This document shows positions 41,112 to 43,805 of a DNA stretch of 64,000 nucleotides, one piece after another. The first letter of the stretch is position 1; each line of letters begins with the position of its first letter. The position numbers and the translations under genes are program-made. The stretch lies in contig NZ_JATAAF010000001.1 of the NCBI RefSeq assembly GCF_030341905.1, forward strand, positions 62,001-126,000. Direction: 5' to 3'. The stretch is from Porticoccus sp. W117. Its GTDB lineage: Bacteria; Pseudomonadota; Gammaproteobacteria; Pseudomonadales; Porticoccaceae. The notes under the pieces are model-generated. The model saw nothing but the letters and a program-made list of their open reading frames with translations. It did not search any database and had not been told where the DNA came from.

Positions 41112-41705
41112 CTACAGAGCACCACTCATCAGTGCCTTCACCTTCTGATCAATGGCCTCCCGAGCGCGGAAAATCCGCGAACGCACGGTACCTACCGGGC
41201 AATCCATCACATTGGCAATATCTTCGTAGCTGAGCCCTTCAAACTCCCGCAAAGTCACCGCTGAGCGCAGCTCTTCCGGCAGGTTGGTAATGGCTTCATC
41301 CACCACTACTTTTAGCTCATCACGAAACAGCTTTTGCTCCGGGCTGGCAATATCCTTGAGGCTGTCGCTGCCAGAGTAATATTCCGCATCACCCACATCC
41401 ACATCACTGGCCGGGGGGCGTCGGCTGCGGGCCACCAGGTGGTTTTTAGCCGTATTGACGGCAATACGATATAGCCAGGTATAAAACTGGCTGTCGCCGC
41501 GGAAATTCTTCAGCGCCCGGTAGGCCTTGATAAAAGCCTCCTGTGATACGTCGTTCACTTCTTCGAAATCGTTGATGTAGCGACTCACGATAGCGCCCAC
41601 CTTGTGCTGGTATTTCAGCACCAACAGGTCAAAGGCGCGCTTATCACCCTTCTGGACTCGGCTGACCAACTGTTTGTCTGTCACTTGGGCCGATTCTACT
41701 GCCAT
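41112..41705 (-). CDS. rpoE: Extracytoplasmic-function sigma factor RpoE/AlgU
   Basis: The 197-residue ECF sigma factor shows region 2 (NDFEEVNDVSQEAFIKAYRALKNF and FYTWLYRIAVNTAKNHL) and region 4 (LPEELRSAVTLREFEGLSYEDIANVMDCPVGTVRSRIFRAR). It directs transcription of envelope-stress and, in pseudomonads, alginate genes. It heads the mucA-mucB-rseC-mucD series and is divergent from nadB, a conserved arrangement. A candidate own-sigma promoter lies 54-80 bases upstream. Confidence 0.97.
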   Translation of the reverse strand: MAVESAQVTDKQLVSRVQKGDKRAFDLLVLKYQHKVGAIVSRYINDFEEVNDVSQEAFIKAYRALKNFRGDSQFYTWLYRIAVNTAKNHLVARSRRPPASDVDVGDAEYYSGSDSLKDIASPEQKLFRDELKVVVDEAITNLPEELRSAVTLREFEGLSYEDIANVMDCPVGTVRSRIFRAREAIDQKVKALMSGAL

Positions 41706-41821: not shown

Positions 41822-41931
41822 GATCAGCAGTGGGCAGTATTTTCCCAGACACGCTGTGAATACATCCTTGTAAGCTCCTCTGCGGCATCCATGCCGCAGA
41901 AGGTCTGGCAAAATACTGCCCACTGCTGATC
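41822..41931. repeat. Core-plus-palindromic-arm element, copy 1
   Basis: A 110-base element has 29-base arms (41822-41850 and 41903-41931) that are inverse copies with one mismatch. The arms begin gatcagcagtgggcagtatt and end at cagac/gtctg. Between them is a 52-base core with acgctgtg, catccttgtaagctcc and an inner gcggcat/atgccgc hairpin. The core matches that of the element at 41981-42103 read on the other strand, while the outer 22-24 bases of the arms do not. Confidence 0.85.
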
Positions 41932-41980
41932 TTCATATTAACTTTCTGTAGCTTTCAAGCAGGTACCACCCAACTTGCTA

Positions 41981-42103
41981 CACCATAAGGTAGTGGGGTT
42001 AGCAGACCTTTGGCAGCAGGGATAGAGGCCAAGGAGCCTACAAGGATGCTTACTTATTTCAACGAAAGCACAGCGTGTCTGCTAACCCCACTACCTTATG
42101 GTG
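41981..42103. repeat. Core-plus-palindromic-arm element, copy 2 (inverted orientation)
   Basis: The arms 41981-42007 and 42077-42103 are perfect 27-base inverse copies (starting caccataaggtagtggggtt). The 69-base core, read on the minus strand, contains acgctgtg, then catccttgtaggctcc, and ends aag before gtctg, as in copy 1. It is 17 bases longer between the first two motifs. The right arm ends 77 bases before the nadB start. The whole 41706-42179 gap otherwise holds only promoter signals. Confidence 0.85.
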
Positions 42104-42179
42104 CCGTGGCACAAGCTATATATCTATGGCGCGCTATACTATCATGCCAGCCAAAATTCGACCTAAGCAGTTCAATTTA

Positions 42180-43805
42180 ATGGCAAAACGGAATCAATTT
42201 GACGTACTGGTGGTAGGCAGTGGTGCCGCCGGTTTAACTGCCGCCCTGCAGTTGGCGGAACACCTTCAAGTAGGGCTGATCTGCAAAGGCGAGCTGCTCA
42301 GTGGCTCCACCATGTGGGCTCAAGGCGGCATTGCCGGGGTGTTCGACCAGAATGACAGCGTCGACCTGCACGTAGAAGACACCGCCCGCGCCGGTGCCGG
42401 CTTATGCCATATGGATTCCGTGCGTTTTACCGCCGAAAACGGCCCCTCTGCCCTGCATTGGCTGATCGACCAACAAGTGGAATTTACCCGCAGTGAAGAA
42501 CCCGGCAGCAACGGCTATCACCTCACCAAAGAAGGTGGCCACAGCCACCGGCGCATTCTTCACAGCGCCGATGCCACGGGCAAAGCCATATCCAACGCCT
42601 TGGTAGACAAAGCCCGCCAGCACCCCAATATCCATATTCACCAGCATCATGCAGTGATTGACCTGATTACCGACGCCGACCCCAACTCGCGCAAGCTGCG
42701 TTGTATCGGCGCCTATGTGCTCGATGTAAAGTCTGGCAGCAGCGCAGTGATGCAGGCAAAAGCGGTGGTACTGGCCACTGGCGGCGCCAGCAAGGCCTAT
42801 CTGTACACCAGCAACCCGGATGGCGCCAGCGGCGACGGTATTGCCGTGGCCTGGCGGCGCGGCTGCCGGGTGGCCAATATGGAATTCAACCAGTTCCACC
42901 CTACCTGCCTGTACCACCCGGAAGCGCGCACCTTTCTGATTACCGAAGCGCTGCGCGGCGAAGGCGCCTATCTGCTGTTACCGAACGGCGAACGCTTTAT
43001 GCCGCGCTTTCATCCGGATGCGGAACTGGCACCACGGGATATTGTGGCCCGCGCTATAGACCACGAGATGAAACGCCTGGGCTGCGAGTGCCTCTATCTG
43101 GATATTTCCCACAGGCCCGCTGAATTTATCGAGAAACACTTCCCCACTGTGCGCAAACGCTGCCTGAAATACGGCATCGACATCACTCGCGAACCCATAC
43201 CCGTGGTACCCGCTGCCCACTACACCTGCGGCGGCATAATGGTGGATAGCTACGGAAGAACGGACTTGCAAAATCTCTACGCTGTGGGCGAAGCGGCCTT
43301 TACCGGCCTGCACGGCGCCAACCGCCTGGCCAGCAATTCGCTGCTGGAATGTGTGGTGTATGCCCGCGCCGCTGCCGAGCACATAAAGAGTGTATTTTCC
43401 GGAATTGCCGAACTCAGCAAAGCCGCTCTGTGGGACGAATCGCAAGTGACCCACTCCGATGAAGATGTGGTGTTGTCTCACAACTGGGACGAGCTGCGCC
43501 GTTTTATGTGGGACTACGTGGGCATTGTGCGTACCGACAAACGCCTGGAACGCGCCCTGCACCGGGTTCAGGTATTGCAGAAGGAAATTCACGAGTACTA
43601 CAGCAACTACAAGATCAGCAAGAACCTCTTGGAAGTGCGCAACCTTACTATGGTGGCTGAGCTGATTATTCGCTCAGCAGCACGTCGCAAAGAGAGCCGT
43701 GGCTTGCACTACACCCTCGACTACCCGGAACTGGCACCGGTGGCCAAAGACACCATTATGGTGCCGGACAACTACGCCGGGCAGGATATTATTGTTAGCA
43801 GCTGA
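42180..43805 (+). CDS. nadB: L-aspartate oxidase
   Basis: The 541-residue flavoprotein has the dinucleotide-binding VVGSGAAGLTAALQLAEH, STMWAQGGIAGVF, the active-site HTxGG-type region as EGGHSHRRILH, NMEFNQFHPTCLY and PAAHYTCGGIMVD, with the C-terminal helical domain. It oxidises aspartate to iminoaspartate in NAD synthesis. The ATG at 42180 fits the family; the open frame extends 35 codons upstream into the hairpin element. Its end overlaps convergent ygfX by 11 bases. Confidence 0.96.
   Translation: MAKRNQFDVLVVGSGAAGLTAALQLAEHLQVGLICKGELLSGSTMWAQGGIAGVFDQNDSVDLHVEDTARAGAGLCHMDSVRFTAENGPSALHWLIDQQVEFTRSEEPGSNGYHLTKEGGHSHRRILHSADATGKAISNALVDKARQHPNIHIHQHHAVIDLITDADPNSRKLRCIGAYVLDVKSGSSAVMQAKAVVLATGGASKAYLYTSNPDGASGDGIAVAWRRGCRVANMEFNQFHPTCLYHPEARTFLITEALRGEGAYLLLPNGERFMPRFHPDAELAPRDIVARAIDHEMKRLGCECLYLDISHRPAEFIEKHFPTVRKRCLKYGIDITREPIPVVPAAHYTCGGIMVDSYGRTDLQNLYAVGEAAFTGLHGANRLASNSLLECVVYARAAAEHIKSVFSGIAELSKAALWDESQVTHSDEDVVLSHNWDELRRFMWDYVGIVRTDKRLERALHRVQVLQKEIHEYYSNYKISKNLLEVRNLTMVAELIIRSAARRKESRGLHYTLDYPELAPVAKDTIMVPDNYAGQDIIVSS

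Follow-up and report, generated by a model that had tools for sequence, protein, structure and literature searches.

The 475-bp gap between the divergent genes rpoE (41112-41705, minus strand; TIGR02939 above cut-off) and nadB (42180-43805, plus strand; PRK09077 / TIGR00551 above cut-off) holds two large hairpins, and the question that this locus raises is how two elements with a common core can each be closed by matched arms when the arms of one copy are not those of the other. Positions are those of the window, by which we mean the whole 64,000-nt stretch of DNA that was analysed, and the two neighbour genes are given for context only. Copy 1, of the A type, occupies 41822-41931, and its folded strand (the GGA strand, opposite to the CATCC strand) is the minus strand, pointing toward rpoE, as judged from the inverted repeat, the fold and RF01731. 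Its 29-nt outer arms (41822-41850 and 41903-41931) are 97% complementary, with a single mismatch, and enclose hairpin 1 (41861-41872, minus strand; UAC-AAGGAU-GUA, a CsrA-type GGA loop) and hairpin 2 (41879-41900, minus strand; UCUGCGGC-AUGGAU-GCCGCAGA, the second GGA loop), both read from sequence and fold. Copy 2, of the B type, occupies 41981-42103 with the plus strand as its GGA strand (inverted repeat, fold and core comparison); its 27-nt outer arms (41981-42007 and 42077-42103) are 100% complementary, hairpin 2 lies at 42008-42035 (plus strand; sequence and core comparison) with its GGA at 42020-42022, and the GGA of hairpin 1, identified by sequence in a ACAAGGAUG context, lies at 42044-42046 on the same strand. 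The core pieces common to the two copies, in opposite orientation, are CAGACACGCTGTG (13/13) and CATCCTTGTA(A/G)GCTCC(T) (94%). Against dinucleotide shuffles the fold z-score is -13.1 for copy 1 and -9.2 for copy 2, and the core pattern has two matches in the 64-kb window and none in 100 shuffles. The first-pass annotation had described just this arrangement of inverted hairpins with a common core and self-complementary arms, down to the one mismatch in 29 nt and the perfect 27 nt; its outer-arm length of about 22-24 bases is refined here to a near-fixed stem of about 26-29 bp. Copy 2 and two copies elsewhere (L103, near 1315, plus strand; L110, near 1279, plus strand) have 15-18 nt extra between hairpin 1 and the junction, which may form a small additional hairpin and possibly define a sub-class.

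Both copies lie upstream of the promoter-like word GCTATACTATCATG (42133-42146, plus strand), which precedes nadB, is kept in same-genus and many same-family relatives and starts 30 nt past copy 2, the hairpin nearer nadB; they are therefore probably outside the nadB mRNA, and a leader function is not claimed here. A cis-regulatory leader was rejected on this ground and because the elements are oriented at random with respect to genes (++43, --35, +-22, -+21, with gene context taken from rough ORF calling).

The two hairpins are members of a high-copy, chromosomal family found across many Gammaproteobacteria. With up to three mismatches allowed, the core has 36 matches in the genome (4 for the reversed-pattern control) and 27 and 15 in the two genomes from the same genus, where each control gave 1; a few of these hits are not real elements. 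A pattern scan of GTDB returned more than 80 loci at least, in Marinobacter, Microbulbifer, Stenotrophomonas, Pseudomonas, Zobellella, Sedimenticola and other genera, and five named genomes have 15 to 56 matches each; all copy numbers are lower bounds from pattern and model searches. The search of the genome and its relatives with the core, which the first-pass annotation had proposed, recovered copies whose arms pair within each copy and differ between copies, so that neither outcome named there as a refutation, the same arms in every copy or a core confined to this locus, occurred. The layout is near-constant, with a stem of about 26-29 bp, a core of 49-69 nt and copy-specific arms. Fourteen of 16 close pairs have the same inverted arrangement as the pair in the window, with the GGA strands outward, and the linker between the two hairpins (41932-41980 here) differs among pairs in an alignment of five. 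No ends are conserved family-wide, and flanks such as GTGGC and TTCATAT are common to some subfamilies. The plasmid and phage records searched gave partial weak matches only and no convincing copy, and no copy was found in the E. coli genomes searched at one setting. Copies also occur in MAGs labelled Klebsiella pneumoniae (L125, L127, L147, L166 and L173), a doubtful label, and a Saccharophagus MAG (L117, 2179-2513, at the edge of the stretch) contains a head-to-tail series of at least three core matches with a period of about 153 bp.

How the arms behave can be read from 138 copies. Within a genome, the identity between copies in the outermost 13 bp of the arms is near chance, at 28-31%, whereas the two core halves reach 64-81%; nevertheless, these 13 bp are paired at 95.5% in the own genus and at 93.7% in the named genomes, a level that falls to about 44% if the right arms are reassigned at random to other copies and to 35-45% if the arms are slid. 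In a gap-free alignment of 49 copies, 95.2% of cells are paired against 61.4% after shuffling (0/500 as high) and 32-44% after sliding, and all 26 arm pairs have two-sided changes; on this alignment RNAalifold predicted 41 pairs, 37 of them with two-sided compensatory change. The arms are locus-specific, with perfect pairing over 27-34 bp in some copies, and the same-genus genome G001 provides an example in L095 and L097, which have identical 52-nt cores and inner arms and outer arms that differ and are still paired. The observation that structure is kept while arm sequence is not, made first on two copies, is thus general over 138. That the arms are unrelated applies to their outer halves but not throughout: 8-10 bp on the inner side are semi-conserved, and within one subfamily the arms are recognisably related. 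The fold, its strand specificity and arms that are free in sequence yet held in pairing can be taken as practically certain.

The way in which the arms change is visible at orthologous sites compared in 30 Stenotrophomonas genomes, whose adjacent gene is 94-97% identical. Compensated substitution is exemplified by GGGCGGATGGGCATGGGGGCAGCGCAGAAC versus GGGCGGATGGGCGTGGGGCCAGCGCAAAAC, with the right arm matching in each case. Exchange of nested blocks is seen at one site in two different cores within the same arms GGCCGGGCGGGCTGCGCAGGAC, in a near-identical core found in different arms, and at another site in several inner arms enclosed by one outer arm word, GATGGCGGGG; L236 and L249, with the left arm of one type and the right arm of another, represent failed exchanges. 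The changes scored relative to the cluster consensus comprise 13 doubles that are compensated, 21 singles that create a mismatch and 13 + 11 singles of the wobble type; in these counts block exchange is not fully separable from repeated substitution. Arms turn over by both compensated substitution and the exchange of nested blocks. In the same genus, unrelated repeats sit inside loop 1 (L231, L239, L241, L242, L246 and L254) or loop 2 (L237, L238, L240, L249 and L258), reflecting either loop-targeted insertion or the spread of one interrupted core by exchange.

The mismatches that the arms do contain point to one strand. Read on the CATCC strand, the 138 copies have 165 A:C against 36 G:T mismatches. 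A DNA palindrome under neutral decay would give equal numbers of both types. The A:C excess on the CATCC strand means that its complement, the GGA strand, tolerates G-U wobble, and this bias indicates that the acting molecule is a single folded strand, as modelled by Rfam TwoAYGGAY; the simplest reading is that this strand is RNA. Read-through from flanking genes was ruled out as the cause, the bias being unchanged where neighbour genes are anti-oriented (49:12) rather than co-oriented with the GGA strand (56:9). G-T pairs are tolerated in DNA hairpins too, so that folded single-stranded DNA could yield a similar bias. Among the recent wobble-type singles in the arms of Stenotrophomonas no such bias is seen (13 versus 11), so the bias of old copies must either build slowly or act on which copies spread, and each resident copy may be only weakly selected. 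The two-sided covariation together with the one-strand wobble bias bears out the suggestion of the first-pass annotation that arm pairing is under strong selection in RNA or DNA.

On the GGA strand the core folds into two hairpins, and a clamp of 26-29 bp closes their junction. Of the 138 copies, 135 have GGA in loop 1, a conservation that is ascertained, the search pattern having included the loop-1 motif, and 133 have it in loop 2, which was in no search pattern; it is kept there even though the hairpin-2 stems comprise more than 20 sequences. The motif ACANGGAYGU occurs on the GGA strand in 113 of the 138 copies, 58 of which have exact UACARGGAUGU, and of the 127 copies with both ANGGA sites, 108 have them at a distance of 23 nt. 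Two such GGA loops can be bridged by one CsrA dimer. The genome has two csrA genes; CsrA is very widespread, so that the presence of csrA in a host is little proof. The CsrA SELEX consensus is RUACARGGAUGU, with GGA within a hairpin loop (PMC4347634).

Among known systems, the closest to these hairpins, for which the first-pass annotation could name no family, is the TwoAYGGAY RNA motif (Rfam RF01731; Weinberg et al. 2010, PMC2864571), yet its gathering cut-off of 43 bits is reached by none of the 18 named loci scored: copy 1 scores 35.1 bits (minus strand) and the best genome copy 40.6. Like the elements described here, TwoAYGGAY has two hairpins with AYGGAY-type loops in a long, sequence-variable outer stem, on the same strand and in Gammaproteobacteria; unlike it, our elements are dispersed in tens of copies per genome, have copy-specific arms and often carry A, G or U before GGA in loop 1. 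The element would appear from these features to be a high-copy, sub-threshold relative of TwoAYGGAY, which agrees with it in anatomy and falls short of Rfam membership in score. For TwoAYGGAY, a motif study of 2014 put forward CsrA as a binding partner and remarked that the external stem is not well conserved (PMC4333381). CsrA-sequestering sRNAs of the CsrB/RsmZ type also present several GGA hairpin loops, and the loop consensus found here fits the CsrA ligand (PMC4347634), but such sRNAs come from a single dedicated gene or a small number of them, whereas the family here is repetitive, with a long clamp and exactly two loops in each copy. Ysr224 (RF02770) has the same core word in its model, on the opposite strand, with a best score of 37.7 bits against a cut-off of 70; it is annotated as a single CATCC-strand sRNA, and we found no dispersed family described in the literature that we read. 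Sub-threshold matches of this model to the CATCC strand were obtained for L230, L234, L089 and copy 1 of the window, and the Ysr224 sRNA may itself be a member of the hairpin family. Matches to miRNA families were likewise sub-threshold and reflect long hairpins. REP/BIME elements with their RAYT transposases (for example GTAG/CGTC REPs, PMC3733652) resemble the family in that a genome contains many such palindromes between its genes, frequently as inverted pairs, but REPs have common stems and a terminal tag, whereas here the stems are copy-specific and there is neither a tag nor a linked RAYT. Identity with REPs was rejected given an outer-arm identity of only 0.28-0.31 and the distribution of RAYT genes discussed below.

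Several explanations compete for these observations. In both same-genus relatives (G001 and G002) the whole stretch with both hairpins is absent from the orthologous rpoE–nadB site, and neither arm has a match there better than random; most simply, the hairpin pair is an arrival in this lineage, arms included and without a flank-copied arm, although the exact insertion borders are unreadable at the divergence of these relatives. This bears directly on the idea, raised in the first-pass annotation, that each element captures an inverted copy of adjacent DNA through template switching or snap-back synthesis, one arm being the ancestral flank. Locus-specific arms that are perfect over 27-34 bp in some copies would fit such copying, and template switching could still aid arm repair, but the comparison of empty sites, from which the ancestral arm was to be recognised, found neither arm above chance, and the arms are of fixed length, are related within subfamilies and change at orthologous Stenotrophomonas sites by paired substitutions and exchange of nested blocks; we consider this origin highly improbable. 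Ordinary terminators or mRNA 3'-end stabilisers, with a core common by chance or descent, would account for very stable intergenic hairpins, for the match of the CATCC strand to the Yersinia sRNA model Ysr224 and for a T enrichment after the stem on that strand (0.31 vs 0.22, with at least four T in 6 nt in 12 of 138 copies). On the GGA strand, which carries the wobble bias, a T tract follows in 0/138 copies, which rules out an intrinsic terminator on the folded strand; moreover, convergent intergenic regions are not preferred and conserved GGA loops at a fixed spacing are not needed for termination, making this reading improbable as well.

A REP/MITE-like mobile DNA repeat deserves more weight. 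Here the GGA strand would be a single-stranded DNA substrate of a putative transposase, whose needs would conserve the loops and the pairing, and the copies would be neutral once inserted. The dispersal of the copies with random orientation to genes, the absence of the pair from both same-genus relatives, the single inverted arrangement of 14 of the 16 close pairs, reminiscent of BIMEs, the missing strand bias among recent single changes and the known tolerance of DNA hairpins for G-T pairs are all consistent with it. However, RAYT (Pfam Y1_Tnp) is missing from G001 and G002, both of which have copies, and in G000, the genome of the window, RAYT is not near copies; no convincing copy appeared among the plasmid and phage records searched; the loops are like a known RNA-protein site; and old copies are still paired while their arms are near chance identity, which long-neutral insertions would not be expected to show unless all of them are young. 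We hold a mobile repeat to be a serious rival, though somewhat less likely than not.

The best explanation, to which we give about even credence, is that the hairpins are structured RNA elements that may act as decoys for CsrA/RsmA. In this explanation the GGA strand folds into a long clamp of 26-29 bp closing a junction with two short hairpins that have A-N-G-G-A-Y loops. Pairing of the arms is selected and their sequence left free, and drift by compensated change and swaps of nested blocks between copies leave, under this selection, every copy with self-complementary arms of its own. A transcript of the GGA strand would bind one CsrA/RsmA dimer through both loops of each copy, and each copy may then serve as a decoy or a local CsrA dock, the arms being a sequence-neutral clamp; transcription, CsrA binding and any effect on the cell are deduced here from sequence features. 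A decoy RNA and a mobile DNA repeat are compatible, since a mobile element may bind CsrA too. The two could combine in chromosome-bound, self-propagating repeats in which selection acts on a folded single strand whose arms are particular to the copy and are renewed by exchange of nested palindromic blocks, the copies together forming a distributed CsrA sponge or docking array in Gammaproteobacteria at large, a conjecture that we regard as rather unlikely in this full form.

The behaviour of the arms provides a clean natural case of palindromes whose halves continue to match as their sequence is replaced. Our data suggest that TwoAYGGAY, an orphan motif since 2010, represents one side of a large family of dispersed repeats. 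The rules for strand, fold and arms established over 138 copies make the CsrA hypothesis directly testable, and if it is true, there would be tens of scattered CsrA docks per genome, and CsrA regulation would have to be re-read with these repeats in mind.
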